DNA of 35,731 nucleotides. Origin: Halobacteriovorax sp. JY17 (GTDB lineage Bacteria > Bdellovibrionota > Bacteriovoracia > Bacteriovoracales > Bacteriovoracaceae). The translations under genes were made by a program, and so were the position numbers. The stretch is taken from the NCBI RefSeq assembly GCF_002753895.1, contig NZ_NJER01000005.1, positions 1 through 35,731 of the forward strand. Direction: 5' to 3'. This document shows positions 12,591 to 35,278 of this stretch, piece by piece. Below the pieces are notes generated by a model that did not search any database, was not told the origin of the DNA, and saw nothing but the letters and a program-made list of their open reading frames with translations. Position 1 is the stretch's first letter. Every line of letters begins with the position of its first letter.

Positions 12591-12594
12591 CTTT

Positions 12595-17612: not shown

Positions 17613-17621
17613 GGAGAAATA

Positions 17622-17942
17622 ATGAAAACAATAAAAAAGAAAATATTAGATATATCAAAATACTTTACTACCGTGTCATTTATTCTGATGGGGAGCTTGC
17701 TGCTCCCATCAGGAAATGTCTATGCCTTTACAAAGCTTAAGAATGGATTTGAGACAATTACAAATAACTATCTTATTCCACTATCAAACGCTGTTGCTGG
17801 AGCTGCTCTGATTTTATTCGTCATACTTTCGTACTTTAAACAGGATGTTTACTTACCAAAGGTGGGAACTATATTTGCTCTCGCGATTATTTCATATGTC
17901 GGATTAGAGATAATATCAACATTAAGCCAAAGCTTTAGTTAG
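17622..17942 (+). CDS. VirB2/TrbC-like pilin
   Basis: A 106-residue protein typical of T4SS major pilins. It has a long signal peptide ending near SGNVYAF, then two hydrophobic helices (LIPLSNAVAGAALILFVILS and VGTIFALAIISYVGLEIIST) separated by a short polar loop (YFKQDVYLPK). The Ala/Gly-rich first helix is typical of TrbC/VirB2. AAGGAG precedes the ATG. It would be processed in the inner membrane and polymerise into the conjugative pilus. Its place next to VirB3- and VirB4-like genes supports the call. Confidence 0.75.
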   Translation: MKTIKKKILDISKYFTTVSFILMGSLLLPSGNVYAFTKLKNGFETITNNYLIPLSNAVAGAALILFVILSYFKQDVYLPKVGTIFALAIISYVGLEIISTLSQSFS

Positions 17943-17950
17943 GAGAAATT

Positions 17951-18214
17951 ATGAAAAACTCTTCTTATCCAGCTCTCTTAAACAAGAGAGCAAGGATTCT
18001 TGCGTCCTTAAGTCGTACTGATCTGATGGTTTTGGGCCTTAACTATCTAATTATGTCTAATCTGAAAATTTCAGGATGGAAAATTATGTGCATTAACCTT
18101 GGACTGTTAATCATAACTAAACTTATTACTACTCGATTAGAGAAAGGATTCTTTGAAGCTTTATTCACCAAGAGGATTATTAAGTGGAATTATAAAATAG
18201 GAGAATTGAAATGA
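17951..18214 (+). CDS. VirB3/TraL-like membrane protein
   Basis: An 87-residue protein with hydrophobic stretches (DLMVLGLNYLIMSNL, IMCINLGLLIITKLI) and a C-terminal polar tail (RIIKWNYKIGELK). VirB3-family proteins are short inner-membrane partners of the VirB4 ATPase and are usually encoded just before it, as here. Its stop overlaps the VirB4 start (ATGA). A good AGGAG precedes the ATG. Sequence similarity is weak, as usual for this family, so the call rests mainly on size, topology and position. Confidence 0.65.
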   Translation: MKNSSYPALLNKRARILASLSRTDLMVLGLNYLIMSNLKISGWKIMCINLGLLIITKLITTRLEKGFFEALFTKRIIKWNYKIGELK

Positions 18215-20139
18215 GTAGATACAGCTTTCCTATCGCTTCAATAGATGGAAATGAGATTATATCTACCTCCGGTGATAAATCTTATTTCTATAAGTTGAAA
18301 GGACATGATCTTGAACAAAAAGATGGTATCGAGATTTTGAATATATTTAATCATATTGAATCGAATCTAAATAATCTCTCCTCAAAGGAGAGCTATAAGT
18401 TCTACCACTTAAAGGGGGAGAATTATTTAAATGCATCTATTCTTAACCCTCAAGTCGGATTAGAGATTTATCCTTGTAATGAGCCTATGGAGGTCTTCTT
18501 TGAGGAGGCCGATATCTTCTCAGATATTGGTATATATGATGACTATATTCTTTATAACGGAAAGTACCATCGAATTATTTCTGTTAAATCATTTAATGAG
18601 GATGAAATAGATGAGTTTTTTCTCCCTCGTGGTTTTGATTACATTCTAAATATAAGACGCAAAGAAAACGAGAAAGCTCTTAAGATTCTAGATCGAGTTA
18701 GAATGTCTCATGGAGCAGGGCAGTTTAAGGCTAAAAGAGATTTTGAAAGTGAGGGGGCGTACGCGCAAGCAGAAGATTTAATTCAAGATATCACACACGG
18801 AGAAGAGTCTATTTTTGATATGGAGCTATTTTTCATAGTTGGGGAGGAGTCATTAGAAACACTAAATATCAGAACTTTTGACTTAATTTCATCTTTAAAA
18901 ATAAAGGGAATAACACCTTTTATCGAAGGTCATAGTATTCGTTCTCATAAGTCAGGTTTGTTTCAAATCTTTAGAGATCTCATCGTGGGTGTAAGACCTA
19001 GTTTTAAGTACCGCTCTATTCCAAATAAAACAGGTCATCTTAAATTTTTAATACCATTTAGTGAAAGCCTATTTATGAGTGAGGGAATTGAGCTAAATGA
19101 TATCTCTGAGAAGGAAATCTACTTTAATCCCTTCTCAAAGGAGTTTAAGAGTCGAAATATGCTAGTTACAGGCTCAACAGGTGGAGGAAAGTCTGTTTTT
19201 GTAAATAAGATAGTTCATGCCTTAATCTCAGAGCATCCTGCTGTTATTTTAGATAAGGGTGGATCTTTTAAGAAAATCTGTACTTATCACAATGGACATA
19301 ATCTAGAATCAGGCATTAATCCTCTTGATTTTAAATGTCCCTATTACTTAAGAGAGTTTGTCTTATCCGCAGTTGATAAAGAGAAATTTCAAAGATTAGA
19401 GAAGGGGTTGCTACTTAAAGAAATAAAAGCTTTCTTGATCAATTATCAAGGGAATTCATTCTTTGATCTTCTATCTCATTTAGAGTCATCATTTAAGGGG
19501 ATTGGTTTATACTTCGAGGATATAAAGGATTTCATTACAGTATCAAATTGTGAAGTTAAACGCCTTCTGTACGTTGATATTGAAAATTATCCTAGTTCAC
19601 AAATAGCTCCTCTTATCATTTATATTCTAGAGTATTTTAAAAATATTCCTGAACCAGAGAAGGTTCTAGTATTTGATGAATGTTGGAAGTTTCTAAAAGA
19701 TCATGGTGAGTATATAGATGAATGTTTTAGGACATTTAGAAAGTCGGGAGCATTTCCAATTGCTATTTCTCAAGGCCTTGCTGACTTTTCTTGTCTTGGT
19801 AAGGATCTTTATTCATCTATTACTAATAACTCCTATTTTAAGGTCTTTTTTCCTCAAGAATTTATTGAGGATAAAGAGGTAAGTGAATTTGATAATGGAA
19901 GAATTTCTTCTTTGCAGTACCGAAAAGGAGAATATTCAGAATGTTATCTTAAGACTCAAGATGGGCTCTATAAGAAAATCTTAAGAATTTTTCTATCCCC
20001 ACTCGAATTAGAGCTTTTTCATACAGAATCAGGTCAAAGCGATAACTTTTTTAAGTTCTTAAAAGACAAGAGAGATTACTTTTCTTCCAACAAGGAAACT
20101 ATTGATTCATTTGTGAGGTTACATCATGGGATGGCGTAG
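18211..20139 (+). CDS. virB4: VirB4/TraC-like T4SS ATPase
   Basis: A 642-residue conjugation ATPase. The N-terminal third resembles the VirB4 CagE/TraC domain. Walker A is GSTGGGKS at residues 321-328, Walker B is VLVFDECWKF with Asp489 and Glu490, and a downstream sensor segment reads PIAISQGLADF. VirB4 is the universal T4SS motor, powering pilus assembly and substrate transfer at the inner membrane. It is shorter than many family members (around 800), mainly in the N-terminal region. The start overlaps the VirB3-like stop, and the end overlaps the next gene by 14 bases. Confidence 0.92.
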   Translation: MSRYSFPIASIDGNEIISTSGDKSYFYKLKGHDLEQKDGIEILNIFNHIESNLNNLSSKESYKFYHLKGENYLNASILNPQVGLEIYPCNEPMEVFFEEADIFSDIGIYDDYILYNGKYHRIISVKSFNEDEIDEFFLPRGFDYILNIRRKENEKALKILDRVRMSHGAGQFKAKRDFESEGAYAQAEDLIQDITHGEESIFDMELFFIVGEESLETLNIRTFDLISSLKIKGITPFIEGHSIRSHKSGLFQIFRDLIVGVRPSFKYRSIPNKTGHLKFLIPFSESLFMSEGIELNDISEKEIYFNPFSKEFKSRNMLVTGSTGGGKSVFVNKIVHALISEHPAVILDKGGSFKKICTYHNGHNLESGINPLDFKCPYYLREFVLSAVDKEKFQRLEKGLLLKEIKAFLINYQGNSFFDLLSHLESSFKGIGLYFEDIKDFITVSNCEVKRLLYVDIENYPSSQIAPLIIYILEYFKNIPEPEKVLVFDECWKFLKDHGEYIDECFRTFRKSGAFPIAISQGLADFSCLGKDLYSSITNNSYFKVFFPQEFIEDKEVSEFDNGRISSLQYRKGEYSECYLKTQDGLYKKILRIFLSPLELELFHTESGQSDNFFKFLKDKRDYFSSNKETIDSFVRLHHGMA

Positions 20140-20815
20140 TTTCATATTGGCACTATTTCTAAACTTTCAAGTTCACGCATCAACATTTTTTATGCCTGAT
20201 AGTGATACTGCTGCTTTGATTACCTTAGTCTCAAATACAGCGAGTACAGTCACAAATACTATGAAGATTCTTGAGGTGGCCAAAAAAGCGAGTGAGAAGG
20301 TCGATAAGTATAATTTCTTGGCCATGCGGAGATACTTTATAGCAAGAAGAATAGAGCAACATTCTAGAGATATTATCGCAGTAGGGAAGATGGACCCAAG
20401 AGGATTAAAAGAAGTTAATCAAGTCATGTTTGGTTTGAAGATGAACTTGAAAGGTCTTAAATCAAATATCGACTTTATGGCGATGGATCTATTTCAAGCA
20501 GAAAACTTTTCTAATAAGTATTGGGAGAAGATCGCTAATTCTATGCAAGATGAGAATGAGGCCCATAATCAAGAGCTATTAAGTGCTAGTGAAGGAAGTA
20601 TGAGTAAGCATGTTCAAAATACTGCAATGAATACAGCGATGACTTCTAAGGTCTTAGCAAAAATAAGAAGAGATAATATCGAGTATCAGAAAGTTGATAT
20701 TGCATTAAAGAAAGGAAGTACAAAAGAAAAATTACGAAGAGAAGCATTCTATAAGAATTGGATAGGTATATCTCAATCAGAAAGTGACCTTTTAGAGACT
20801 GAGGGACAACTTTGA
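20126..20815 (+). CDS. VirB5/TrbJ-like exported T4SS protein
   Basis: A 229-residue protein with a signal peptide (MGWRSFILALFLNFQVHAS). The mature part is almost entirely helical: TAALITLVSNTASTVTNTMK, a long charged middle, and AMNTAMTSKVLAKI. Periplasmic helical proteins between VirB4 and VirB6 are usually VirB5/TrbJ-type minor pilins or assembly factors, and the helical spacing fits TrbJ. There is no direct sequence signature, so I base this on topology and gene order. It overlaps the VirB4 end and the VirB6 start. Confidence 0.55.
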   Translation: MGWRSFILALFLNFQVHASTFFMPDSDTAALITLVSNTASTVTNTMKILEVAKKASEKVDKYNFLAMRRYFIARRIEQHSRDIIAVGKMDPRGLKEVNQVMFGLKMNLKGLKSNIDFMAMDLFQAENFSNKYWEKIANSMQDENEAHNQELLSASEGSMSKHVQNTAMNTAMTSKVLAKIRRDNIEYQKVDIALKKGSTKEKLRREAFYKNWIGISQSESDLLETEGQL

Positions 20816-22155
20816 ATAGCTCAATCTATGACCTATTGATGATAACAAGTTTTGATTTAGATAAGCTTATAGAGGATTACAGAATTTTCTTTCTAGCTCT
20901 TCTTCCTGGAATGTTTATTCTAGCCTGTTTGGTGGAGTATTTTGACCGAATGAATGTGTTTGATCTGGTAAAGAGGGCCTTAGTTTCAGTATTGATTCTA
21001 ACGAGTGTGACAGGATTCTATAAATCATCTATCCGTTATTCAATAGATGCAGCTAATGAAAGATTTCAGGAGCAAAAACAAGTAAATATACTATTAATGG
21101 ATATGTTTGAGGCAGGAAATTACTTAGGAACTGTTGGAAAGCAAGATAATGGAAAATTCTTTAAGAACTCATCTATGATTGATGGTGGATTAAAGTTTCT
21201 TAAGTACCACTTCTTTAGCTCATTTATAAATGACGGCTTTACTGTAAGTGTGTATTTCATCAGTCAGCTTTGTTTCATTCTTTTAAAAGTCGTCTATTCA
21301 CTAGTTTATTATCTTGGATATGGATTAATTGGAATCCCTTGTATCGTTTATCTGTTTCTCAGTATGGGAAATGTTCTACGAGGAGGAGTTTTGAGCTTTT
21401 TATGGTGTTTGATTGTTCCTCATGTCCTTGTATTTATTTTATCTATGATTGGCAGTGAAATTAATACTGGATATCAAGCTGGGCAAGTCATAGGTGGAAG
21501 TGCGAGCGGAACGGCACTTTTATTTATAATGACACTCTTTATTGCATTCACTCCATTCATTACAATGATGCTGATTAACGGGTCTGGAATAGCCCAAGCT
21601 GGGGGAGTTATAGCTCTTCTTGGTGGGAATTTTATTAAAAGTTTACCCTCAAAGGCGTTAAATACTGGAGCAACTTTAGCAACAGGTGGCGTTCTTGGTC
21701 CAAAAATGGCCCTTGCTAAAGGAGCTATTAAGTTCGGGGCAGGTGCGACGGGTAAAGGTTTTAGCAACTTTAAAAGTTCTATGTCTTCACTTAAAGGAAG
21801 TAAGAGTACAGGCAACTCTAAAAATTCATCTAGTTCTTTTAGTACTAGTCGTGGTGACGTTAAAAAATACTCTCAATCAACAAGCTCTAAGGAAGATTCC
21901 TCAAAGACTGGAAGTAAGGGACAATCACAAGCAAATTCAACTAATAAGTCAATACAGAGAGAAAACAAACAAGAGGTTAATAATGCTAAAAAGAAATCAA
22001 GTCCACAAGGGGCCAGAGAAGTTAATCAGCATAGAACACGCAATTCAAGGAATCAAAAGACCAGTAATGCTTATCGCAGTACTAGGGATAATAGCAAACA
22101 TACTAATTCTAAGCGTACAAGTTCTCGTCCTGAACAAAAAAGAGGAAAGCGTTAA
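20812..22155 (+). CDS. VirB6/TrbL-like polytopic membrane protein with low-complexity tail
   Basis: A 447-residue protein with five or more hydrophobic segments in residues 20-270 (IFFLALLPGMFILACLVEYF, ALVSVLILTSVTG, LCFILLKVVYSLVYYLGYGL, VLVFILSMIG, ALLFIMTLFIAFTPFITMML) and a Gly/Ala-rich hairpin (GSGIAQAGGVIALLGGNF). This matches the VirB6/TrbL channel component. Residues 310-447 are a hydrophilic Ser/Lys/Asn/Thr-rich tail, likely cytoplasmic and disordered. The start is a TTG overlapping the previous TGA, with GAGGGA seven bases upstream. The last 173 bases also encode the start of the next gene. Confidence 0.7.
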   Translation: MNSSIYDLLMITSFDLDKLIEDYRIFFLALLPGMFILACLVEYFDRMNVFDLVKRALVSVLILTSVTGFYKSSIRYSIDAANERFQEQKQVNILLMDMFEAGNYLGTVGKQDNGKFFKNSSMIDGGLKFLKYHFFSSFINDGFTVSVYFISQLCFILLKVVYSLVYYLGYGLIGIPCIVYLFLSMGNVLRGGVLSFLWCLIVPHVLVFILSMIGSEINTGYQAGQVIGGSASGTALLFIMTLFIAFTPFITMMLINGSGIAQAGGVIALLGGNFIKSLPSKALNTGATLATGGVLGPKMALAKGAIKFGAGATGKGFSNFKSSMSSLKGSKSTGNSKNSSSSFSTSRGDVKKYSQSTSSKEDSSKTGSKGQSQANSTNKSIQRENKQEVNNAKKKSSPQGAREVNQHRTRNSRNQKTSNAYRSTRDNSKHTNSKRTSSRPEQKRGKR

Positions 22156-22447
22156 GTATAGTAGTTTTGAGGCATGTTATTACGGTATGCAAAGTATCGT
22201 GAATAATAGTCCTGTTAAAGATCTCATGAATAATAAATTGGTTAAGGATCTTGAAAAAGTGAGTTTCAACGTTGAAAGAATACATCTCGTTAAAATGATT
22301 GACAGCTTTTCTTGTGACGTTTTTACAACAGATTCTAAAGGAGTTCGCAGGTATCAGATTGCTCTTGAGAAAAATACTAGATTTGCTCATCTATATCGCC
22401 TTATCGATATAAAGGAGAGGAAGGTCAGTTCGAGGTATCAACTATGA
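21983..22447 (+). CDS. VirB8/TraE-like protein, start nested in the VirB6 gene
   Basis: A 154-residue protein with a cytoplasmic N-terminus, one membrane helix (VMLIAVLGIIANILILSVQV) and a small periplasmic domain (FEACYYGMQSIVNN..., DSFSCDVFTTDSKGVRRYQI). This is the topology of VirB8/TraE assembly factors, shortened. The frame is open 99 codons further upstream, but that region is the shadow of the VirB6 tail. ATG 21983 has AAGAGG nine bases upstream and gives a sensible N-terminus. It is followed in order by VirB9/TraK-, VirB10/TraB- and TraV-like genes, the E-K-B-V order of F-type systems. Confidence 0.6.
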   Translation: MLKRNQVHKGPEKLISIEHAIQGIKRPVMLIAVLGIIANILILSVQVLVLNKKEESVKYSSFEACYYGMQSIVNNSPVKDLMNNKLVKDLEKVSFNVERIHLVKMIDSFSCDVFTTDSKGVRRYQIALEKNTRFAHLYRLIDIKERKVSSRYQL

Positions 22448-22926
22448 TCTATTATATTTTTAAAGAACAAATATTTACCATCTTCCTATCAATGGCACAT
22501 CTCACAGCGATGACTTTTCCGACAAAAGTGTTTGATTATGTTGGAGGCCAAGAAGGAGATTTTAAAATCTATGAACTTAATAAAAGAAAGAGTTTAGTCA
22601 TAGAAGCAAAAAGAAAGGATATTAATAGAAACTTTATCGTTTTTGAAAAAGATGGAAAGTACCACTTCAATATTAAGTATGATGAGGCGCTATCAAATAA
22701 AGATATTGTCCTAATGGACGCTAAGAGTTGTGGGCTATATTCAATAATTAAAGAAACAAAAAAATATCAATTATTTGAGTGTCCTAAATCACTACTAATC
22801 GTAAACAAAGCTAGAAAGAAGCTAAAAGTTAATGACTTCTACATATCTAAGAAGAAGTTTATTTCAAAAGGTCCTCCTGTATGGGTGGATGAGAAGTTAG
22901 TTTATTACAAAGGTAGAGCATTATGA
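22444..22926 (+). CDS. VirB9/TraK-like secretin-complex protein (short)
   Basis: A 160-residue exported protein. After a hydrophobic leader (IFTIFLSMAHLTAMTFPTKV), the mature part resembles the N-terminal domain of VirB9/TraK: FDYVGGQEGDFKIYELNKRK, SLVIEAKRKDINRNFIVFEK, DGKYHFNIKYDE. The family's usual C-terminal domain that contacts VirB7 is missing or very short, since VirB9 is normally around 250-290 residues. It would form the outer-membrane core with the next two products. Start and stop overlap its neighbours by four bases on both sides (ATGA). Confidence 0.65.
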   Translation: MIYYIFKEQIFTIFLSMAHLTAMTFPTKVFDYVGGQEGDFKIYELNKRKSLVIEAKRKDINRNFIVFEKDGKYHFNIKYDEALSNKDIVLMDAKSCGLYSIIKETKKYQLFECPKSLLIVNKARKKLKVNDFYISKKKFISKGPPVWVDEKLVYYKGRAL

Positions 22927-23687
22927 GGTGGATATTATTGATATTGCCAATTAATTGTTTGGCCGGCTTTAGTGCTTTAAATAGTAGCTATGAGTATCAA
23001 ATTCAAGATGAGGTTAAATCTACTCACTCATCAACAAGAAAGTCTAAAAAGAAGGGAGGAGATTTAAGTAAAATATTAAAAAGTATTGAAGCAAGTGATA
23101 GGAGCATTACTGACATCTTAGTAAATAGTGAAAAGAAGGTTCTAGTAAGAAAGCAAGAAGATCACTTGTCATCATTAACTAGATTAAGAGGAGTCTTACT
23201 TAATTCAGTCTTAGCAACTAACAGACGAGGAACTACTTTAATTATTAGACTTGAAGACAATGAGTACTTTGATGAAGCCGAGGTTCGGTGTAAAGGTCTT
23301 AGTTTTGGAAAAAGAGTCATTGGTAAGTGTGATTTAATCGTGAGTGGCGAAGATGAATTTCAGGTTGTTGCAGAGCTATGGGATCTAGATGGAGCAGAAG
23401 GTATCATCGCAGATCAATTCTATGATGGTTCTGAGAAAGAGTTTTTAACCAGCAGTTTTGCTTCTTTCTTTGAAGGAGTTTTAGGAGCCACAAAAGACAG
23501 GCTTATAACTCCATATGGTGAAGTGAATCAGATAAATGGTAAGAATCAAGTTTTATCGGGACTTATGGGAATTGGCGGTAATGTTAATTCAAAAGTTAAG
23601 AACTCAAGTGAGAAGAACTTGCAAATTGCTCTGATAAATTCAGGGAAAGAAGTGTTTATCTTTTTTCAAAAGAAGGTGAAGTTATGA
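22923..23687 (+). CDS. VirB10/TraB-like scaffold protein (short)
   Basis: A 254-residue exported protein. The first 70 residues are polar and linker-like (KSTHSSTRKSKKKGG). The C-terminal 180 residues resemble the TrbI/VirB10/TraB beta-barrel: LTRLRGVLLNSVLATNRRGT, EVRCKGLSFGKRVIGKCDLI, a helical antenna region (FASFFEGVLGATKDR), GLMGIGGNVNSKVKNSSEKN and the end LINSGKEVFIFFQKKVKL. Typical VirB10 has an inner-membrane helix. Here the N-terminus looks like a cleavable signal (WILLILPINCLAG), so the bridging function may be reduced. It sits between the VirB9- and VirB7/TraV-like genes. Confidence 0.7.
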   Translation: MRWILLILPINCLAGFSALNSSYEYQIQDEVKSTHSSTRKSKKKGGDLSKILKSIEASDRSITDILVNSEKKVLVRKQEDHLSSLTRLRGVLLNSVLATNRRGTTLIIRLEDNEYFDEAEVRCKGLSFGKRVIGKCDLIVSGEDEFQVVAELWDLDGAEGIIADQFYDGSEKEFLTSSFASFFEGVLGATKDRLITPYGEVNQINGKNQVLSGLMGIGGNVNSKVKNSSEKNLQIALINSGKEVFIFFQKKVKL

Positions 23688-24211
23688 AAAGATCATTGTT
23701 AATAATAGTCGGGGCATGTTTTCTTTTATCGTCGTGTTCATCAATGAAGAAAACGATTCTTTATAGCTCTTTAAGCGGCGGGCTAGCTGGTGCAGCTTCA
23801 GGTTATGCGTTAAGTCCAGATAAAGAAAGTCGAGGTGCAAATGCAGCAATTTTTGGAGTTTTAGGAGCAGGGCTTACTGCTTTAATTGGTTACGCTCTAT
23901 TTGAGGACGATCCACGTAATCAAAAATTAAACCATATGCTTGAAGACAAGAGTTCATTGAATCCAAATTCACTAGGTTTGGATCTTGGTGATCTTAAGAT
24001 AGAAGCCAATCTTTCAAATGAAGGAGTCTATAAAACACCAACAATAGATCTACCAAAAGAGCTTAAGGGAAAAATTAAAAAACAATACGTCATTAAGTAT
24101 GAATCTAAGGAGAGATATCTACATAAGGGAAGTAAGACGTACTATATTCCTTCATTCAAAATCTTTGAACATGCATACGATGAAATCTTAGGAGATAAAG
24201 AAAGTGATTAA
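23684..24211 (+). CDS. TraV/VirB7-like lipoprotein with glycine-zipper segment
   Basis: A 175-residue lipoprotein: MKRSLLIIVGACFLLSSC has a lipobox with Cys18. Residues 30-72 are Gly/Ala-rich and hydrophobic (GGLAGAASGYALS, FGVLGAGLTALIGYALF), a glycine-zipper pattern that packs helices in a membrane. The C-terminal half is polar, with many Lys and Tyr. In T4SS operons a lipoprotein next to VirB10/TraB normally stabilises the outer-membrane core (TraV/VirB7). It overlaps both neighbours, so expression is coupled. The zipper domain is unusual for TraV, which leaves an entry-exclusion lipoprotein as an alternative. Confidence 0.55.
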   Translation: MKRSLLIIVGACFLLSSCSSMKKTILYSSLSGGLAGAASGYALSPDKESRGANAAIFGVLGAGLTALIGYALFEDDPRNQKLNHMLEDKSSLNPNSLGLDLGDLKIEANLSNEGVYKTPTIDLPKELKGKIKKQYVIKYESKERYLHKGSKTYYIPSFKIFEHAYDEILGDKESD

Positions 24212-25706
24212 GGGAAAAGAGAAGAGTGTCGGACTTGGAGACTTTATGCTTCCAGTTGTAGATCTTTTGTCCATTGTAATTACAAAAGGAATAGAGCTTT
24301 TAAGCAAAGGAGTAATATTGGTATTTGAAAAGTATATTTTAAAAAATAGAGTTCCTGATATTGAGAAGATTGAGAGAGATGATTTACTAAAAAGTAAGAC
24401 AACAAGCGATTTTGATTCTATTGGTTATTCTATTACATCGAAGAGAGAGATTAAAAGTCTTGATATTAATAAATCTAAGCACTCTGTTGTTGTTGGTGCA
24501 AGTGGTTCTGGAAAGTCAGTTCTTCTTGATGCTCTTATGAATGATGATATGAGACAAGGAAAACCTGTTATTTATCTTGATCCTAAAGGAGATAATGAGT
24601 CATTAGAAAGATTTATTGACCTTTGTAGAATGAATAAGAGGGAGTATTTAATATTCTCTGAGTATTACGATAAAGATAATAAGCTAAGTCTTAACCCAGT
24701 GTTGGATGGAAGCATTAATCATATCGCAGATCGTATTTTTAGAAGCTTTACATGGAGTGAGGAGTTCTATGCAAACAAATCTCAGCAAGCTCTAAAGATC
24801 TCAGTCAAATTTCTAAAGGACAAGAAATCCCCAGTAACGCTTAAAAGTATTTATGAAATGATCTTAGAATTATCTGAGAAGAAGGTGAATGGAAAGTTAA
24901 TTCTTAATAGAGCTGAGATAGAGGGGTTAATAACTAAGCTCGATAATATTGTCAATTCAGACTTTGGGGAGATCTTAGGAGGAGATAGCGCCTATAGTTT
25001 TAATCAATTAAGAGAAGAGGGGAAATGTGTCTACATCGGTCTTTCTGTTCTTGGCTACGCTGAAACTGCTAGGGCCATAGGAAAGATTATCTTAGGGGAT
25101 ATTAACTATAGTGTTTATAACACATATAGAAATATATCCCATGCCTCTAAGAATATCTTGAAGCCTCTAGGTCTCTATATAGATGAGCTTTCAGCAGTTA
25201 TTACAGATGAGTTCGTTGAAATTCTTAATAAGTGTAGGGGGGCCAAGATAGAAATAACTTCAGCATTTCAGACATCTAGCGATATTAATAAAGTTAACCC
25301 AGACCTTTGCCAACAGGTTTTTGAAAACTCTTTAAACTGGTATGTAATGAAGCAAAGAATGCAGGAAGCAGCGGAAGATATTTCCAATTCAATTGGAACT
25401 ATGGAGTCAACTAAGAAGACTGTAAGAATTGAAGACGGTCAAGAGTTAGACCTTGGATCACAAAGAAAAGTCGAAGAATTGATTGTTCATCCAAATATCA
25501 TCAAGAATCTAAATGTAGGACAGTGTATTCTCTTGCGTCAGCAACCAACAAGAATTGATCTTATAAATGTTAAGTATATTGATCAGGACACAATTAATAA
25601 GAATATTAAGTTCTATGAATATAATAACTGGATTAACGAAAGAATCTTTCAAGAGAAAATTAATGAACCAGTAAGTGACGAAGAAAAGGGGCCTTTGAAT
25701 GACTAG
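24204..25706 (+). CDS. virD4: VirD4/TraD-type coupling protein
   Basis: A 500-residue ATPase that brings the DNA-relaxase substrate to the secretion channel. Walker A is GASGSGKS at residues 98-105, followed by the family block DDMRQGKPVIYLDPKGDNES. Walker B lies near residue 327 (LGLYIDELSAVI), followed by KCRGAKIEITSAFQTSSDIN, the usual motif-3 region. The N-terminal 50 residues have one or two weak hydrophobic stretches (LPVVDLLSIVITKGIELLSK) instead of two clear membrane helices. The start is GTG with AGGAG nine bases upstream, overlapping the lipoprotein by eight bases. The next gene overlaps its stop, which ties the coupling protein to the candidate relaxase. Confidence 0.88.
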   Translation: MIKGKEKSVGLGDFMLPVVDLLSIVITKGIELLSKGVILVFEKYILKNRVPDIEKIERDDLLKSKTTSDFDSIGYSITSKREIKSLDINKSKHSVVVGASGSGKSVLLDALMNDDMRQGKPVIYLDPKGDNESLERFIDLCRMNKREYLIFSEYYDKDNKLSLNPVLDGSINHIADRIFRSFTWSEEFYANKSQQALKISVKFLKDKKSPVTLKSIYEMILELSEKKVNGKLILNRAEIEGLITKLDNIVNSDFGEILGGDSAYSFNQLREEGKCVYIGLSVLGYAETARAIGKIILGDINYSVYNTYRNISHASKNILKPLGLYIDELSAVITDEFVEILNKCRGAKIEITSAFQTSSDINKVNPDLCQQVFENSLNWYVMKQRMQEAAEDISNSIGTMESTKKTVRIEDGQELDLGSQRKVEELIVHPNIIKNLNVGQCILLRQQPTRIDLINVKYIDQDTINKNIKFYEYNNWINERIFQEKINEPVSDEEKGPLND

Positions 25707-26397
25707 TTTTCACCTTGTAGATGGTTATATTGATATTCTTAGTGAAGTTGGTAGATGGAAGATCATTCCCATGAGAGGGCTTTATGAACTCAATAGCTTT
25801 GGGATTCAATATGCAACATTTTGTAGAAAAATAAAGAAACTTGAATCAGAAGGACTTGTTAGAAGTATTTTAGGAAATAATAAAAGAAAATTTATAACAC
25901 TTACTAATAAAGGAACTGAGATTTGTCCTTATGGAGTGAGCTTTGACGATCTAGAAGACAGCTTGAATCATGATCTGATTGCTACAAATATTGTTACTAA
26001 GTTGATCGAGTATAAGAATTTTAAAACTGGTCAAGTACAATGTTTCGGACGCGGGTTAGATGTTGAGCCCGATGGATTAATTTTTGGTCAAAAGAATGGA
26101 AGAGAATATTCATTGGCCATAGAAGTTGAGCTACATCAGAAAAGCAAGTCGAGAGTTTCGGATAAGCTTATCAAGTATGCGAATAGTGTCTATTATTCTT
26201 ACGTTATTTATATCCTTAATAAGGAATCAACCTATAGAGCTTATAAAATGATTCTAGAAAGTATGAATGATGAAGTAAGAAGAAAGGTCATTTTACTCTT
26301 TGATATTAATCTAACACCAACAAGATTTAACTTCAAAGATGCTCAGTGTCTGTTTCAAGGTAAGAACGTGAGCTTTGAGGATATCTTCGGTGAGTAG
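25699..26397 (+). CDS. Replic_Relax-like protein (candidate relaxase)
   Basis: A 232-residue protein. Residues 1-75 form a winged helix (MRGLYELNSFGIQYATFCRK, LESEGLVRSILGNNKRKFIT). Residues 115-200 have a PD-(D/E)XK-like pattern: EPDGLIFGQKNG, then YSLAIEVELHQKSKSRVSDK, then LIKYANSVYYSYVIYIL. This matches the Replication-relaxation (Replic_Relax) family, found on plasmids and integrative elements and thought to act in DNA processing. Overlap with the coupling-protein gene and position before a palindrome-rich gap make it the best relaxase candidate in the element. No three-His HUH relaxase is visible. The alternative is an accessory factor acting with a relaxase encoded elsewhere. Confidence 0.65.
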   Translation: MTSFHLVDGYIDILSEVGRWKIIPMRGLYELNSFGIQYATFCRKIKKLESEGLVRSILGNNKRKFITLTNKGTEICPYGVSFDDLEDSLNHDLIATNIVTKLIEYKNFKTGQVQCFGRGLDVEPDGLIFGQKNGREYSLAIEVELHQKSKSRVSDKLIKYANSVYYSYVIYILNKESTYRAYKMILESMNDEVRRKVILLFDINLTPTRFNFKDAQCLFQGKNVSFEDIFGE

Positions 26398-26436
26398 GGT
26401 TATAAGAAGTAAGGTGAATTGTTACTTGAAGTTACA

Positions 26437-26586
26437 CCCACCTTCGCCCCATATACATTTTTCTAAGCTAATCAAATAGTTATCTGACGCGATTTTTGAC
26501 CACCCCCTCTCCACGAGTTACGAGGATGTGGTCAATAATAGCTAATAACAATTGATTGTTAGAAATAATAATGGGGCGAAGGTGGG
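26437..26586. other. Candidate oriT or replication origin framed by a 16-bp inverted repeat
   Basis: CCCACCTTCGCCCCAT (26437-26452) is repeated perfectly inverted at 26571-26586. Inside lie TTGACCAC (26496-26503) with GTGGTCAA (26528-26535), bracketing a CTC/GAG inner pair, and the 7-bp palindrome TAACAAT-TG-ATTGTTA (26546-26561). Nested inverted repeats between the DNA-processing gene and the next operon are what oriT regions look like. The perfect G/C-rich arms in AT-rich DNA suggest protein binding or strong folding. A transcription terminator is less likely, as no T-run follows. Confidence 0.55.
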
Positions 26587-26616
26587 AATTAAATTAAAAG
26601 TGGGAGAATAATAAAA

Positions 26617-26997
26617 ATGGTGGAAGAGAAAAAAGAGATAGAAGAGAGTCAGAAGAAGAAAAGAGGTAGAAGGCCTAAAAATGTGAAGATTGAGTATGTT
26701 TTAAATAAAGAGCAGACGAAGTTTTTTGTTGATTTAAGTAAGAATAAGAATGAACTGAAACTTGTCCAAGATATATTAATAAAGGTTAATGATAAGCATC
26801 ATGGCGGTGAGGTTCTATTTAAAGATATTGCGTTATTTTCGATTGAAAAGCTTACGATTAAAGATATTGATAAGCTTCAAGAAAACTCGTTGTCTGAAAT
26901 GGAAAAGGTTCAAAGAAGTCTTGACGAATACAATACTAAGAATAATTTAAAGTTAAGTCTTGGTGAGTATCTTTTAAAGAAGCTCAATTTAAATTAA
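26617..26997 (+). CDS. Basic AT-hook-like accessory protein
   Basis: A 126-residue, highly charged protein. The N-terminus is acidic then basic (KKKRGRRPKNVKIEYV), where RGRRP resembles an AT-hook minor-groove binder. The rest is helical (FFVDLSKNKNELKLVQDILI, LSEMEKVQRSLDEYNTKNNL). It starts 30 bases after the inverted repeat, with a good GGGAG, and leads the small SSB/xis/int operon. Position and composition suggest an oriT-binding auxiliary or partition-type protein. No family was recognised. Confidence 0.6.
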   Translation: MVEEKKEIEESQKKKRGRRPKNVKIEYVLNKEQTKFFVDLSKNKNELKLVQDILIKVNDKHHGGEVLFKDIALFSIEKLTIKDIDKLQENSLSEMEKVQRSLDEYNTKNNLKLSLGEYLLKKLNLN

Positions 26998-27012: not shown

Positions 27013-27318
27013 ATGAATACAAATATAATGCAATTGTTTGTTGGCCGATTAGGGAAAGAGCCTGATCTAAGATATACAAAAAATAAAAAGGCAGTCTGTC
27101 ATTTGTCGATAGCAACTACTAATGATGAGAAAAAGATCATTTGGAATAAAGTCGTTGTTTGGGGAAAGCAGGCTGAACTTTGTAGTTTATATCTTAAAAA
27201 AGGCAAAGAAGTTTTCGTTCAGGGTTATAAAGAAATTAGAGAATTTACGACTAATGATGGAGAGGTCAAAGAATATGAGGAGATTACAGCGAGCCTAATT
27301 GGTTTTCCTAATTTATAA
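27013..27318 (+). CDS. ssb: Single-stranded DNA-binding protein (short)
   Basis: A 101-residue OB-fold SSB: LFVGRLGKEPDLRYTKNKKA, VCHLSIATTNDEKKIIWNKV, VVWGKQAELCSLYLKKGKEV, FVQGYKEIREFT. It lacks the usual disordered linker and acidic tip (DDDIPF) that recruits repair proteins, as is common in mobile-element SSBs. It likely coats transferred single strands. GAGAGG precedes the ATG. The next gene's ribosome site overlaps its stop codon. Confidence 0.85.
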   Translation: MNTNIMQLFVGRLGKEPDLRYTKNKKAVCHLSIATTNDEKKIIWNKVVVWGKQAELCSLYLKKGKEVFVQGYKEIREFTTNDGEVKEYEEITASLIGFPNL

Positions 27319-27328
27319 GGAGGTCTAT

Positions 27329-27517
27329 TTGAATAGTGTCAAAGATATTAATAAGTCTTGGTTATCTACAGATGAAGCAGCGAAGTACCTTGGTAAGACT
27401 CGAAATGCCATCTGGCAATTAGTGAGTAAAGGACTTCTTATAAAGAGAAAATGGGGAAGAAGGCTATATTTTAAAAAATTAGAATTGGATCAATTGATTG
27501 AAAATTCTTTGATTTAA
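27329..27517 (+). CDS. Excisionase-family HTH protein
   Basis: A 62-residue MerR-like/HTH_17 DNA-binding protein (WLSTDEAAKYLGKTRNAIWQ, LVSKGLLIKRKWGRRLYFKK, LELDQLI). The frame can be opened earlier inside ssb, but AAGGAGG at 27317-27323 places the start at TTG 27329. Such proteins next to a tyrosine integrase normally act as recombination directionality factors, bending att DNA to favour excision. Integrase follows after 10 bases. Confidence 0.8.
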   Translation: MNSVKDINKSWLSTDEAAKYLGKTRNAIWQLVSKGLLIKRKWGRRLYFKKLELDQLIENSLI

Positions 27518-27527
27518 GGGAGTGGTA

Positions 27528-28664
27528 ATGGCAATAACTAAAGTGATGGATAAGACTGAAATTAATTATTCTGTTTATGTAAATATAAGAAGTAATGTTA
27601 TGCCACATATCCGCTTCCAAAAAAGAATCAACGGTCTACTAACAAAGGCAGAAGCAAAAAGAAAAGAGAGGAAACTTATTCAGCAGTTATCTCAAAGGGT
27701 GGCACATGCTGAAGGGCATGGATTAACCTGGAGGATGATTGTTAGTAAGTGGGCGGCTACGGTCGCCTCCTCTTCTTATCTTGAAAAATCTTATAATCCA
27801 TCAACAATTAAGGACTATGTCTCAATGTTACATCGTTGGACTAAAGTTTGGCTTGATAAGCCTGCATCAGAAATCACTAGAGGCGATGGACGTGAAGTTT
27901 TAAATCTCATTATTGATAAAGGCCGAAGTAAGGCATTTCAAAAGAGGGTTAAGAATACAATTAATATGATTTTTAACTGGGCCATAGAAGAAAAAGTAAT
28001 AAGAGGAATTCATAATAGTCCTGTCTATGGTTTAAAGATCACGATTAAGCAGGATAAAAGGCCGGAGATATTGAAAACTGATGAGATTAGGAAGCTTCTT
28101 TATGAAGCTAAAGAGCGGAAGCATGGTTGGTACTTTATTTGGGCCATGGCGCTTATGACTGGTATGAGAAATGGAGAGCTTTATTCTCTTCGCTGGGAAG
28201 ATGTCGATTTTGATGGAGGAATAATTAAAGTTGAGCGTTCTTATAATTTCAAAACAGGAGAATTTAAAGATACAAAAGCAGGGAACTGGAGAAGTGTTCC
28301 GATATCCTCTGAATTGAAGTCGCTATTTTTAGAGATCAAAAATACCTCTAAGTCCGAATTTGTTCTTTCAAGAATTCATATTTGGAAAAATGGAGAACAG
28401 GCGAAAATTCTAAAGTTCTTTTGCCGTTCAATCGGATTACCTGAAATTCGTTTTCATACTTTAAGAGCTTGTTTTGCTACTCAATTAATAGGTTCAGGCG
28501 TGGAGCCAGTAAAAGTTATGAAGATCTGTGGTTGGAAAGATCTCAAAACTTTATCTGTGTATCTCAGATTGGCCGGAATTGAGGAGAAAGGGGTTACTGA
28601 GGGACTTAACTTTCTTCCAACGGAAAAGGGTAATGTTTGTTCTATAAATTCAAAAAGAAGCTAA
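27528..28664 (+). CDS. int: Tyrosine recombinase / integrase
   Basis: A 378-residue phage/ICE-type integrase. Residues 1-60 include an arm-binding-like segment (MPHIRFQKRINGLLTKAEAK), residues 65-165 the core-binding SAM-like domain, and residues 180-378 the catalytic domain. Arg214 lies in LMTGMRNGELYSLRWEDVDF, His310-x-x-Arg313 in FHTLRACFATQLIGSGV, Trp in CGWKDLKT, and the nucleophile Tyr345 in LSVYLRLAGI. All active-site residues are present. ATG 27528 is preferred over a GTG two codons earlier because AAGGGAG has correct spacing to it. It closes the element and probably acts on the structured site just downstream. Confidence 0.92.
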   Translation: MAITKVMDKTEINYSVYVNIRSNVMPHIRFQKRINGLLTKAEAKRKERKLIQQLSQRVAHAEGHGLTWRMIVSKWAATVASSSYLEKSYNPSTIKDYVSMLHRWTKVWLDKPASEITRGDGREVLNLIIDKGRSKAFQKRVKNTINMIFNWAIEEKVIRGIHNSPVYGLKITIKQDKRPEILKTDEIRKLLYEAKERKHGWYFIWAMALMTGMRNGELYSLRWEDVDFDGGIIKVERSYNFKTGEFKDTKAGNWRSVPISSELKSLFLEIKNTSKSEFVLSRIHIWKNGEQAKILKFFCRSIGLPEIRFHTLRACFATQLIGSGVEPVKVMKICGWKDLKTLSVYLRLAGIEEKGVTEGLNFLPTEKGNVCSINSKRS

Positions 28665-28764: not shown

Positions 28765-28804
28765 TCGTATATTAGTGTCTAGTCAAGATAAAGAGAGCGT
28801 ATAT

Positions 28805-28912
28805 GGTTTATCATAAGTTTCATATGTCGCCCTGGAGTCGACATTTAGCACTTGATTTAAACCTTGTTTCGGTTTATCATATGTTTAAAAAGTCGCCTCG
28901 GAGTCGACATAT
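28805..28912. repeat. Tandem operator-like repeats before the AbiE pair
   Basis: Two copies of about 43 bases, 66 bases apart, begin GGTTTATCATA (28805 and 28871) and share a GTCGC...GGAGTCGACAT core. Each core holds an inverted repeat (ATGTCG 28824-28829 with CGACAT 28839-28844; GTCG/CGAC in the second copy). They end directly before the AbiEi start. AbiEi proteins are known to repress their own promoter through upstream repeats, so these are likely its operators. Confidence 0.65.
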
Positions 28913-28913
28913 T

Positions 28914-29678
28914 ATGCTTAAAATAAACCAAGTATTATCAAATTGGAATAGTGGAGATGTTCATGGCCTTGAATGGCTCGCTGGATATGGCGTAGATCGT
29001 AAGCTTGCTTATAAGTATTGTAAGAGCGGTTACTTGGACAAAATAGTTCCTGGAGTTTTCATAAAGGCTAATGAACAGCCAAATCCTTATGCTGTAATAA
29101 GATATTTACAACAAGAACTGAATTTAATGTTACATGTGTCTGGTAGAACAGCTCTTGAATTACAGGGCCATGCTCATTACCTCTCAATGGGTAAAAAAAA
29201 TAAGATATATCTAACAAGCTACGAAAGCAGGGTGTTTCCCAAATGGCTAAAAGAGTACTGGGGACATTTTGAAGTATCATTTCGAAAATCTAGTTTTCTA
29301 GAGTCTGAAAAGTATTTAACCGAGCATGAAGCGTCCGGCGGTTACAAAGTGAATGTTTCAACGAGGGAGCTAGCAATAATGGAGCTTATCGAGAGTTTCG
29401 ATCTTTCGAATTCTCTTGAGACCGTTGAGAACTATGCTGAATCTTTGAATACTCTTCGCTCGTATGTTCTTCAGGAAATATTAGAAGAGTGTCAATCAGT
29501 TAAAGTTAAAAGAGTATTTCTCTACATATCCGAAAAAATGAATCTTCCATATTTTAAGAAATTAGATTTAGAAAAGATAGATCTAGGAAGTGGTAAAAGG
29601 GTTGTTGTTGAAGGAGGATCTCTCGATAAAAAATACAACATAACCGTTGATCGAATAATAGAGGAGAATCCATTTTGA
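28914..29678 (+). CDS. abiEi: AbiEi-family type IV antitoxin / repressor
   Basis: A 254-residue protein. Residues 1-60 form a winged helix of the AbiEi N-terminal type (EWLAGYGVDRKLAYKYCKSG, YLDKIVPGVFIKANEQP). The following domain contains VSGRTALELQGHAHYLSMGK and STRELAIMELIESFDLSNS, typical of the AbiEi C-terminal antitoxin domain. Known members neutralise AbiEii and repress the operon. The frame can be opened 37 codons earlier, but that part translates the operator repeats, so I start at ATG 28914. Its TGA overlaps the TTG start of the toxin gene. Confidence 0.82.
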   Translation: MLKINQVLSNWNSGDVHGLEWLAGYGVDRKLAYKYCKSGYLDKIVPGVFIKANEQPNPYAVIRYLQQELNLMLHVSGRTALELQGHAHYLSMGKKNKIYLTSYESRVFPKWLKEYWGHFEVSFRKSSFLESEKYLTEHEASGGYKVNVSTRELAIMELIESFDLSNSLETVENYAESLNTLRSYVLQEILEECQSVKVKRVFLYISEKMNLPYFKKLDLEKIDLGSGKRVVVEGGSLDKKYNITVDRIIEENPF

Positions 29679-30586
29679 GTACTGACTATAATAAAACAGT
29701 AGATCTTCTATTGGAGATACTTCCATTTGCATTAAAAGATGAGAGATTCGCTTTAAAGGGTGGAACTGCCATAAATTTGTTTCATAGAGATTTTGCAAGA
29801 TTATCTGTGGATATAGATCTCTGCTATCTTCCTTTAGAATCAAGGGATGATACCTTTAAAAATATTCATTCAATATTGGAGATTATTCAAAAAGACTTGA
29901 AAGAAAAACTAGGTTTAACAGTATTTCCCAATAAACCTTTAAAGGATAAGAATGAGTCAAAGTTATTTGCAAGAAAGGATAACCTGGAAGTAAAGATAGA
30001 ACCAAATTATATAATTCGAGGGTCAATTTTTCAGGCAGAAATTATTCCACTCGCAAGTAAAGCGCAATCAAAATTTAAAAAGAGTGTTGATGCGAAATGT
30101 TTAAATCTAGCAGATACTTATGGTGGTAAAATTTGTGCAGCTCTAGATCGTCAACATCCAAGAGACTTATTTGATGTTAAAAATTTACTTGATAATGAAG
30201 GAATTACAGAAGAGGTAAAAAACTCATTTCTATTTTATCTATTATCTCATGGTCGGCCATTAGATGAATTGTTGAATCCAAAGTTTAAAGAAATAAAAAA
30301 GGAGTACGAGGACCATTTTGTAGGGATGGCCGAACAAGAACCATCGGTAGAAGAATTAACAAATGCCAGAGAAAAATTAGTTAATGCAGTAGCCGAAAGT
30401 CTGTCAACATCGGACAAGGAGTTTCTTGTAACATTTGCTAAAAGAAGCCCTGATTGGAGTAAATTTAATATACCTGGAATTGAACATTATCCATCAATAA
30501 AAAGAAAGCTGTATAATCAGGATCAAATGACTGATGAAAAAGTAAAAGAATACGTTAAAAAATTAAGTAAGGTTTTAGGGTTATAA
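29675..30586 (+). CDS. abiEii: AbiEii-family nucleotidyltransferase toxin
   Basis: A 303-residue toxin of the type IV AbiE system. The nucleotidyltransferase signature is KGGTAINLFHRDFARLSVDI, followed by DLCYLP (the GG.....D.D active site); later blocks are CLNLADTYGGKICAALDRQH and PRDLFDVKNLL. Related toxins add nucleotides to tRNA acceptor ends and stop growth, giving abortive phage infection. The start is TTG 29675 with GAGGAG eight bases upstream, overlapping the antitoxin stop. All visible catalytic residues are present. Confidence 0.88.
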   Translation: MSTDYNKTVDLLLEILPFALKDERFALKGGTAINLFHRDFARLSVDIDLCYLPLESRDDTFKNIHSILEIIQKDLKEKLGLTVFPNKPLKDKNESKLFARKDNLEVKIEPNYIIRGSIFQAEIIPLASKAQSKFKKSVDAKCLNLADTYGGKICAALDRQHPRDLFDVKNLLDNEGITEEVKNSFLFYLLSHGRPLDELLNPKFKEIKKEYEDHFVGMAEQEPSVEELTNAREKLVNAVAESLSTSDKEFLVTFAKRSPDWSKFNIPGIEHYPSIKRKLYNQDQMTDEKVKEYVKKLSKVLGL

Positions 30587-30651: not shown

Positions 30652-31913
30652 ATGAGTAAAACAACGAAAACAATTAATAGAGATCCAAGTGATAAAACAG
30701 CAGGGTTTCGTTTGCAAAAATTAAGAGCCATTAAGGTTATGCTGAATCATTTTTTGGAGAATCCTGAAGCGTTGTTTTGGTGCTCGATTGAAAAAAAGCG
30801 GATGTCAGTTTAGAAAACAATAATAATGATGGCGAACTCGAAAGACATCTAGAAGAGGATAAAAATTACGGTGAGGACAACAAGTTAACCTTTAATAGTA
30901 GTGCAATATTAAACACTTTGGTGATAAATATTGACTCACTTCACCAGTTTGACTTTAATCCAAATACTCTGTTTACGTTCTATACTTCCACTTCATATAC
31001 AAAGGAGGGGGAGACGAAATTTACAAAAGAGAATGAACTTTCGTTCCCAGAAGAATCAGTCTTTTCTAAGTTAAATACTACTGTTGATGGAAAAGAAGTT
31101 GAAAGTTATGGAGGTGCATTTGATGATGATGCACTAATTGAGCTTTTGTCAAAAGTATTATTAAACGAATACAAGTCACAATACTCCAAAAAGAAATACA
31201 ATGGAAATTTGGGATCTATAAAACAATGGGATCTTGAAAACTGGAAAGATTTTTTTAGGCGGATAAAGTTTTTCTTTGGTGAACCGAACCATGAGGAGAT
31301 TTATAAAGATGTAGAAACTTTAGTTAAATCATTGCCTCAATATAGTGATGATTTAATTGGTAAAGAAGGATTAATTATTTCAGCATTGCTTGAAGAAGTT
31401 GAAAAGACTCAATATTTAGAGGGATCATCAAAAGGATATGTTACTAATAAAAGTATCGAATTGGTTTATGAACAATTAAAAAATGGAAGTAGGCGTCTTG
31501 TAGATCCATCTTGGATGTCATGGGAAAAAGTCGAAAAACCAAAAGATTTAAGAAATATTGAAGAGAAAATTAGAGATGTTTTAAATGATCCCGATCAAAA
31601 CTTCATGGATCGAATAAATAGAAGAGCTGCAAATGGCTTAACTAAAACACAAGAGCATAATGAGGATAAAACTCTAAAAGCTGTTTTATATATAATTTAT
31701 GACTGCTGTGAAGAAGAGCTAAATGAATTAGTTAAAAATAAAGAGTCAATGACAGAACAGGAAATTACGGATAGTATTAGGGTACTTGTTGAAAAATCCT
31801 ATGAAGATATCAAAGAAAAGGCTTCTGATTACTCCTATATAGTAACAAATAAGAAGTCTATTCAAGAATTAGTACTATATCTTGTAGATAGCTGCTATTT
31901 AGCATTTGATTGA
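30652..31913 (+). CDS. ABC-3C-like nuclease effector requiring a -1 frameshift
   Basis: Two overlapping frames encode one protein. Frame 0 begins at ATG 30652 and ends at TAG 30811-30813 (53 residues: RDPSDKTAGFRLQKLRAIKV, then FWCSIEKK). The -1 frame runs from 30798 to 31913. Joined at the A_AAA_AAG run they give about 420 residues. The N-terminal 140 resemble DUF4297/PD-(D/E)XK effectors of ABC three-component systems: SIEKK|ADVSLEN, EEDKNYG as the D..ExK core, LTFNSSAILNTLVINID. The middle (WKDFFRRIKFFFGEPNHEEI) and helical C-terminus fit the ABC-3C coupling part. Read straight, the shift leaves either a 53-residue stub or a product lacking the first catalytic segment. It leads the operon with the middle component and ATPase. 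Confidence 0.6.
30792..30798 (+). promoter_or_regulatory. A_AAA_AAG slippery heptamer
   Basis: In frame 0 the codons are GAA AAA AAG, so the heptamer is in the exact phase needed for tandem -1 slippage, the same sequence used in E. coli dnaX. GATGTC (30801-30806) and GACATC (30844-30849) can pair downstream, although the spacing of two bases is shorter than usual and the loop is long. No Shine-Dalgarno-like stimulator lies in the usual place upstream. Confidence 0.5.
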
Positions 31914-31923
31914 ATGAGTTAAG

Positions 31924-32484
31924 ATGGAAGAAATTAGTTCAAAGATAAGAAATAAAAAGAGGCTTATGTTTATAAGCGGTGAAGACTTTTATCTTATGGC
32001 TTATTCAATTGTAATCATTTTGGATGAGCTCGGATGCTTTGAGGGAAAGAAGACATTTAAAGATCATCGTAAGTTTGCATTTCTAATTTCAGTGATGGGT
32101 GACTCTAGATTTAAATCAATTTGGGTTAAACTTGGAATTAGAAATAGTTCTGAAAAATCAATATTGTCAATTGATGAGAGAAAAATAATGCTGGATGCGT
32201 ATTATTGGGCAATCGGTAAAGATCCAACAATCGAAAGATTGCTTATAAATATGGAGAAAAACGGCATATTGGCCTTGACTTCAGATTCAAGCAAAAAAGT
32301 ATTCGATGTTTCTCTTAGAGAGCATGAAGGTGTAAAAAAAATATTGGATTGTGACTTATATGATTATGATAGAGATGTTTTTAGAGCTTTAGCTTCAGTG
32401 GTTAAAAGGATGAATGTTCTTACTTTAGAGAGCTTTGTAGAGAAAACATTTCACAAGTTTGAGATTGGAAAATGTCTAGTTTAG
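31924..32484 (+). CDS. ABC-3C-like middle component
   Basis: A 186-residue, mostly helical protein starting 10 bases after the effector stop and overlapping the ATPase start by 13. Its size, charge and position between effector and ATPase fit the middle component of ABC three-component systems, small winged-helix adaptors that link the ATPase to the effector. Segments such as FYLMAYSIVIILDELGCFEG, HRKFAFLISVMGDSRFKSIW and VFRALASVVKRMN look like core helices. I cannot assign it to a particular middle-component family by eye. Confidence 0.6.
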   Translation: MEEISSKIRNKKRLMFISGEDFYLMAYSIVIILDELGCFEGKKTFKDHRKFAFLISVMGDSRFKSIWVKLGIRNSSEKSILSIDERKIMLDAYYWAIGKDPTIERLLINMEKNGILALTSDSSKKVFDVSLREHEGVKKILDCDLYDYDRDVFRALASVVKRMNVLTLESFVEKTFHKFEIGKCLV

Positions 32485-34376: not shown

Positions 34377-34426
34377 AGGTTCTAATTGAGCTAGTGTTTT
34401 CTATCAAAAAGTTGAAAGGAAATATT

Positions 34427-35278
34427 ATGAAAACTTTTGAAGCAGATAGATTAGAATCATTGTTTCGCTTTTTTGATTATACAGGGGGAATAGAAACTCT
34501 TAAAAATAAAAGACTTCGCTTTAAAACGGCTGATCAGTTTAATGACCCTTATGAATTACTTCCTTCATCTTTTATTCCAGATATAAATTTTCAAGAGTTA
34601 AGCAACGAAGAAATCTTAGATGAGATGAAAAATGTTGATATCTATCCATTAAATTCTTTGCCTCCTGGTACTTTGGGCAAGCTTCCTTTGGAAGCGATTG
34701 AGAATGGTTTAAGACCCTTGTTGGAAAAGAATATTAAAAGCTATTCCGAAGGAGTTCGACAAGTTTTCGAAAATTACAGGAAAACCTCATTTATTAATTG
34801 TCTAACTCATAGAGTTGATATCCTGAGAATGTGGTCCGACTATGCTGACAAGGGGAAAGGCATTGCTATCGAATTTGAAGTTTCTGTAGAGCGAGATAAT
34901 TTTTTTAGATGCGCAAAAGAGGTTAAATACCATAACAGTCCACCTAAATTGTACACTTCTCTGTCAGAGCTATTCGTTAAAGGTTATGAAGCATCAAAAC
35001 CCGAGAATTGGAAATCTTTATTTGAATATTTCTCTTACTCTAAGAGTGATGATTGGAAGAACGAAGAGGAATGGAGAGTTATAATGCCAGATATGTCTAC
35101 TGACACGTATTGTGACTATACTTTTTCGCCAGAAGATATTTTAACTGTTTATTTGGGATACAATTTATTGAATAAAGAAGAAATTATAAATGAAGTTAGA
35201 AATTTGAATAAAAACATTAAAATTATTCAAGTTGAAGTAAACAATCATGAGCATGGCTTAATTATGAAAAATATTTAA
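34427..35278 (+). CDS. DUF2971 family protein
   Basis: A 283-residue protein with the DUF2971 pattern: LKNKRLRFKTADQFNDPYEL at the start, then FINCLTHRVDILRMWSDYAD, KGKGIAIEFEVS, and SDDWKNEEEWRVIMP near the end. The family is often found in defence islands, but its activity is not established. I placed the start at ATG 34427, with AAAGGA upstream, because it gives the conserved N-terminus; eleven more codons are open before it. It follows the ATPase by 50 bases in the same direction, so it may be an added part of the defence operon or an independent gene. Confidence 0.78.
   Translation: MKTFEADRLESLFRFFDYTGGIETLKNKRLRFKTADQFNDPYELLPSSFIPDINFQELSNEEILDEMKNVDIYPLNSLPPGTLGKLPLEAIENGLRPLLEKNIKSYSEGVRQVFENYRKTSFINCLTHRVDILRMWSDYADKGKGIAIEFEVSVERDNFFRCAKEVKYHNSPPKLYTSLSELFVKGYEASKPENWKSLFEYFSYSKSDDWKNEEEWRVIMPDMSTDTYCDYTFSPEDILTVYLGYNLLNKEEIINEVRNLNKNIKIIQVEVNNHEHGLIMKNI

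Follow-up and report, generated by a model that had tools for sequence, protein, structure and literature searches.

The DNA analyzed here (the window; 35,731 bp) is one entire contig (C5) of Halobacteriovorax sp. JY17, whose genome is 100% complete and comprises 3.47 Mb in 5 contigs. The features relevant to conjugation were as follows:

17622-24211, plus strand: type IV secretion system (T4SS) operon encoding VirB2-like, VirB3-like, VirB4, VirB6-like, CagX/VirB9-like, and TrbI/VirB10-like proteins and a lipoprotein
18211-20139: VirB4/TraC (E = 2.8e-27)
20812-22155: TrbL/VirB6-like protein
22444-22926: CagX/VirB9 (weak match)
22923-23687: TrbI/VirB10 (weak match)
24204-25706, plus strand: type IV coupling protein (T4CP; VirD4/TraD-TraG type), 500 amino acids (TraD, E = 9.6e-34)
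25699-26397, plus strand: MOBC-type relaxase, 232 amino acids, assigned by homology, profiles, and invariant motifs; by sequence, an N-terminal winged helix (wHTH; residues about 10-85) and a C-terminal PD-(D/E)XK-like domain (H91, D125, E142, E144, K148, and R152)
26071-26142, plus strand: codons of the putative catalytic motifs D125 ... E142-x-E144-x3-K148 (49/49 homologues; TraX alignment)
26437-26586: predicted oriT, a nested inverted repeat between the relaxase gene and the gene for a 126-amino-acid protein
26437-26452: 5' outer arm of the predicted oriT, CCCACCTTCGCCCCAT
26571-26586: 3' outer arm, the exact complement of the 5' arm (16 nt; arms 118 nt apart)
26497-26534: inner core of the predicted oriT, TGACCAC...GTGGTCA, with a conserved pyrimidine-rich loop
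26500/26501, minus strand: predicted nic, 5'-GGGGGTG/GTCAAAA
26617-26997, plus strand: basic protein of 126 amino acids, right after the predicted oriT
27013-27318, plus strand: single-stranded DNA-binding protein (SSB; PF00436)
27299-27517, plus strand: small HTH protein, probable excisionase (PF12728)
27522-28664, plus strand: tyrosine integrase (PF00589, E = 5.8e-21)

An earlier note on this DNA, made from the letters alone, had described a near-complete T4SS with a coupling protein, and this description was borne out: VirB4, a VirB6-like protein, weak VirB9 and VirB10, and T4CP were all recognized, and neither VirB11 nor VirB1 was seen. Gene order was compared among 51 homologous loci. A T4CP relative stood directly 5' of the relaxase homologue in 36 of them, as in known MOBC plasmids, where the T4CP gene is followed by mobC, and the VirB genes were in the same order upstream of the homologues in loci with long flanks. 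On the 3' side, we found the gene for the 126-amino-acid protein (33 loci), SSB (28), an excisionase-like protein (23), and tyrosine integrase (25). Some relaxase homologues (L037, L040, and L044) had no T4CP match within several kb upstream, as in mobilizable elements. The basic protein of 126 amino acids, whose gene was also found beside oriT copies without a relaxase (see below), is a probable auxiliary protein of the relaxosome.

The conjugation module at 13751-26997 (13.2 kb) was 94.9% identical to that of a UBA3083-type genome (G045:C4, L057-L059), and the only relative found among the genome contigs, 99% identical over the protein, was in the MAG 'Bacteriovoracaceae bacterium UBA3083'. 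The match of the module stopped right after the gene for the 126-amino-acid protein, while the integration module and cargo differed, suggesting that the latter two were exchanged around the conjugation module. In the window, an AbiE toxin-antitoxin pair (AbiEi and AbiEii; 28803-30586) is located just 3' of the integrase gene, followed by Lamassu-like defence genes (30918-35278) consisting of an LmuB-like ATPase gene (32472-34376), two unassigned genes upstream of it, and, on its downstream side, a DUF2971/PDC-S31 gene. An ISL3-family transposase gene (4104-5339), a similar copy of which adjoins the conjugation module of another genome (G046, L062), lies in the left part of the contig. Two adjacent genes (11288-12382 and 12583-13671) encode paralogues of about 363 amino acids whose N termini resemble signal peptides and which match no Pfam family. 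Within the order, 68 of 129 genomes had a relaxase homologue, and a profile search of the phylum found one in 187 of 369 genomes. A search by tblastn against PLSDB with the 232-amino-acid protein gave no match, and no relative was found in the viral contigs searched with this protein alone and with the family profile.

The frame at 25699-26397 was intact, and its first 8 nt coincided with the last 8 nt of the coupling-protein gene (24204-25706). H91, D125, E142, E144, K148, and Y182 were invariant in all of the 49 homologues used for residue conservation, and a profile-profile comparison aligned D125/E142/E144/K148 with D152/E170/E172/K176 of TraX; the E-x-E/K residues of AIEVELHQK, to which the earlier note had pointed, correspond to E142, E144, and K148 (aligned with TraX E170, E172, and K176). 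When the family HMM was built from Bacteriovoracaceae only, with TraX excluded, the held-out TraX proteins were recovered by hmmsearch (search space, Z=10000) with E-values of 5e-7 to 2e-10 (pTEF1, 1.1e-7; LR962597, 1.9e-10), and the matches spanned wHTH and the catalytic region. In the comparison with known relaxases proposed earlier, hhalign of the family with nine MOBC relaxases gave 98.0% with an E-value of 1.9e-13 over 175 columns; the reversed profile gave 0.2%, and 60 column-shuffled profiles scored 25 or less, against 95 for the real one. The catalytic half alone also matched the MOBC relaxases (E = 1.3e-9), as did the N-terminal half that of the MOBC proteins (E = 1.3e-6). Since mobC appeared frame-shifted in the CloDF13 record (NC_002119), a close intact relative was substituted.

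Judged from this homology and the invariant motifs, the product of 25699-26397 is a divergent member of MOBC, a known but less common non-HUH class. According to the literature, this class is related to restriction endonucleases of the PD-(D/E)XK type, and TraX has a winged helix at its N terminus (PMC12857230, PMC5714925); a PD-(D/E)XK fold would be expected in the C-terminal domain of the JY17 protein. A covalent DNA intermediate has never been observed for this class (PMC12857230), and no MOBC structure was known at the time of a 2019 paper (PMC6499999). The proposal that this winged-helix/PD-(D/E)XK-like protein may be the relaxase, with a chemistry other than that of HUH enzymes, is supported by its homology with MOBC, its invariant D125/E142/E144/K148, and the MOBC-like predicted oriT downstream, which also agree with the weight given to AIEVELHQK and the adjacent inverted repeat, and the hint of novelty attached to it falls away because the class is an established one (PMC12857230, PMC5714925). 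The whole 3.47-Mb genome contained no match at E<=1 to PF03432, PF08751, or PF03389 (Relaxase, TrwC, and MobA_MobL domains), in line with the claim that no HUH relaxase is recognizable in the module, and with these three families a canonical relaxase was not found elsewhere in the genome either.

Family libraries were searched with 26 family members. NCBIfam MobC (NF041423, MobC_subf) matched 15 of them (best E = 2.1e-5), PHROG 9381 ('replication initiation by nicking') matched 12, and PF13814 (Replic_Relax) matched six (best E = 1.5e-6). The name Replic_Relax, which had been given to the 232-amino-acid protein, was thus appropriate at the family level; the protein itself did not match PF13814 (gathering score of 25.3), and neither did an annotated Vibrio MobC. 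The match of the 232-amino-acid protein to NF041423 was weak (E = 0.0019; 17.5 bits) and below the 200-bit cut-off, and since the prototype TraX was likewise below it (23.6 bits), we took this shortfall as a limit of the subfamily, not of MOBC. Weak matches to MarR/Crp wHTH regulators were also detected. A single-sequence AlphaFold model was uninformative (pLDDT of 41), and PDB sequence matches, which covered wHTH only, were dismissed as chance.

The inverted repeat adjacent to the relaxase gene, which the earlier note had proposed as a nicking substrate, was real and highly significant: as single-stranded DNA, it folded with -40.3 kcal/mol (z = -7.5). A nested repeat of the same plan, in other letters, followed nearly every relaxase homologue. 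A 7-bp core with full Watson-Crick pairing and TGAC/GTCA-type core ends was found in 47/47 loci examined, and the outer arms matched exactly over 9 nt or more in 83% of the loci, compared with 1.2% of shuffles. In the 11-pair core stem of 46 sequences, 98.2% of 506 cells were paired (52% or less when the stem was slid), and double changes numbered 131 versus 46 in shuffles. Matches to a covariance model restricted to the inner core were found in 81 of 129 genomes. Among the 146 strongest sites listed, 97 followed a relaxase hit at a distance of 72-285 bp and invariably shared its strand, and such a site accompanied 84 of the 100 top-scoring relaxase hits. The nested inverted repeat at 26437-26586 is very probably the oriT of the mobile element, and resembles the sites of MOBC systems.

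If this repeat were instead a structured RNA, a terminator, or an operator of the 126-amino-acid protein, it would be well placed between two genes of the same orientation, as hairpins can end transcription, and in front of the gene for the 126-amino-acid protein, which it often precedes (33/51 loci). We nevertheless consider this improbable. Only one of the 506 cells was a G-U pair, so that covariation was almost purely of the Watson-Crick type; the core constraint consequently looks like DNA symmetry rather than RNA, and the hairpin was set aside as an RNA on these grounds. Against Rfam, no family reached its gathering score with the predicted oriT, and two miRNA models far under theirs were rejected as chance hairpin matches. 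Furthermore, the site was found beside integrases without a relaxase or a recognizable gene for the 126-amino-acid protein (L076, L078, L079, L081, and L086), and a related site precedes traX in Enterococcus plasmids.

Copies of the predicted oriT without a relaxase were a recurrent finding. No relaxase hit was present near 49 of the 146 strongest sites listed, a number that is an upper bound for true orphans because some of the loci checked had a divergent relaxase, a contig end, or a remnant. Among 20 of these loci read in detail, 13 lacked a relaxase; the others were rejected as orphans because a divergent relaxase was encoded upstream (L080, L083, L084, and L085), a contig end cut them (L075 and L082), or a relaxase remnant was present (L073). 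A tyrosine integrase was found within about 2.5 kb in nine of the 13. In the series L071-L090 (e.g. L076, L078, L079, L081, L086, L087, and L090), oriT copies occurred without a relaxase or T4CP and mostly with an adjacent integrase. On three contigs (G127:C34 (L072), G066:C84, and G075:C242), two predicted copies were about 0.4-1.1 kb apart. Four relaxase-less sites in one genome (G127) had a 38-nt core identical to that of the relaxase-linked site of a congeneric genome (G126, L018). Integrative mobilizable elements without a relaxase have been described as iOriT (PMC11389934), and the copies beside tyrosine integrases in sister genomes resemble them; the literature searched contained no report of an MOBC-type iOriT from Bdellovibrionota. 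Islands hitchhiking with oriT only probably exist in Bacteriovoracaceae as candidate iOriT elements, and their appearance provides independent support for a site acting in trans.

The best explanation overall, in which we have high confidence, is that the element is transferred by an MOBC relaxase acting on an oriT at 26437-26586, together with T4CP and a VirB-type T4SS, and is excised and integrated by its integrase. What the analysis showed is the homology, the invariant motifs, the gene order, and a DNA site that is conserved and has covarying arms. According to the predicted mechanism, the N-terminal winged helix of the relaxase would bind oriT, and its C-terminal metal-dependent nuclease domain of the PD-(D/E)XK type (D125, E142, E144, and K148) would nick one strand, probably at the TGAC/GTCA core (minus strand, GGGTG/GTCA). 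The 126-amino-acid protein and SSB would probably assist in relaxosome assembly, the coupling protein would pass the strand to the VirB-type T4SS, and the tyrosine integrase (27522-28664) would excise and integrate the element.

The Pfam name Replic_Relax, the matches of 12 of the 26 members to PHROG 9381, and the weak similarity to wHTH regulators may also be read as signs that the 232-amino-acid protein serves the element as an MOBC-like initiator of replication or as a regulator, with transfer depending on another nickase. This reading is quite unlikely: the order T4CP-relaxase-oriT is the rule, the three HUH families are absent from the genome, and enterococcal plasmids carry the DNA site too, linked to traX. 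Least credible of all is that the tyrosine integrase, located 1.1 kb downstream of the 232-amino-acid gene, is itself a relaxase of the TcpM/MobK type with the wHTH protein as an accessory, because the integration module varies on its own (the related copy is 95% identical over 13751-26997 and then diverges), and relaxase-less islands also carry integrases, as expected for integration, even though tyrosine recombinases acting as relaxases are known (TcpM, PMC6499999).

With the relaxase thus assigned to MOBC, which is among the least studied classes of relaxase, about 100 relaxase-oriT pairs with a strongly covarying site make recognition, the nic position, and helper-hitcher specificity testable. 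The oriT model is also a tool for finding mobilizable islands in a phylum in which conjugation is hardly described, and the present host, a relative of predatory bacteria, has a mobile element with an MOBC relaxase and a predicted oriT. We lean, by a little, toward a broader view in which MOBC relaxases are the prevailing initiators of conjugation in Bdellovibrionota, oriT is a DNA site under symmetric Watson-Crick constraint and homologous between Bacteriovoracaceae and Enterococcus, and, in these bacteria, some of them predators, many islands that lack a relaxase have oriT alone and ride resident MOBC elements.

Among known systems, HUH relaxases (MOBF, MOBP, MOBQ, and MOBV) share the role in transfer with the 232-amino-acid MOBC relaxase, but differ from it in motifs, fold, and chemistry. 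TraX of the pAD1 type (pTEF1 copy) has wHTH and a catalytic domain in common with the JY17 protein, despite only about 20% identity and a Gram-positive host. In the T4CP-traX gap of pTEF1, nested repeats of the same plan were found, with a TGACCA...TGGTCA core and the T4CP gene nearby. When the covariance model was run over known MOBC plasmids, it matched this gap in three enterococcal pAD1-type loci (E = 7e-6, 0.004, and 0.004), and the loop letters CTCAACGT were common to the matched gaps and the Bacteriovoracaceae site; the site, however, precedes traX in the enterococcal plasmids, whereas it follows the relaxase gene here. Francia and Clewell (2002) reportedly located the oriT2 of pAD1 next to traX.

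The MobC proteins of CloDF13 and of enterobacterial and vibrio plasmids are comparable in length (241-251 amino acids), have a T4CP gene directly or closely upstream, and match the profile of the 232-amino-acid relaxase family (E = 2.9e-10); the JY17 relaxase, however, is under the MobC_subf cut-off. The covariance model did not find the CloDF13 oriT region in the run over MOBC plasmids, and the likeness is in plan and core letters only. The sequence GGGTG/GTCGGG, which we take to be the nic of CloDF13, occurs once in this plasmid (9752-9762; chance expectation of 0.01), within an inverted repeat with a GACCACCC/GGGTGGTC core and outer arms of 14 nt that are 106 nt apart. The inner repeat spacing of 47 nt differs from that of about 24 here, and the CloDF13 site is upstream of the T4CP gene, unlike the site after the relaxase gene in JY17. 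In ICEKp1, assigned to MOB type C, nic is GGTTG|GTCGCG (PMC7755788). By analogy with these two nic sequences, the nick in the JY17 element is placed probably at GGGGGTG/GTCAAAA of the minus strand (26500/26501), with the other arm or strand also possible.
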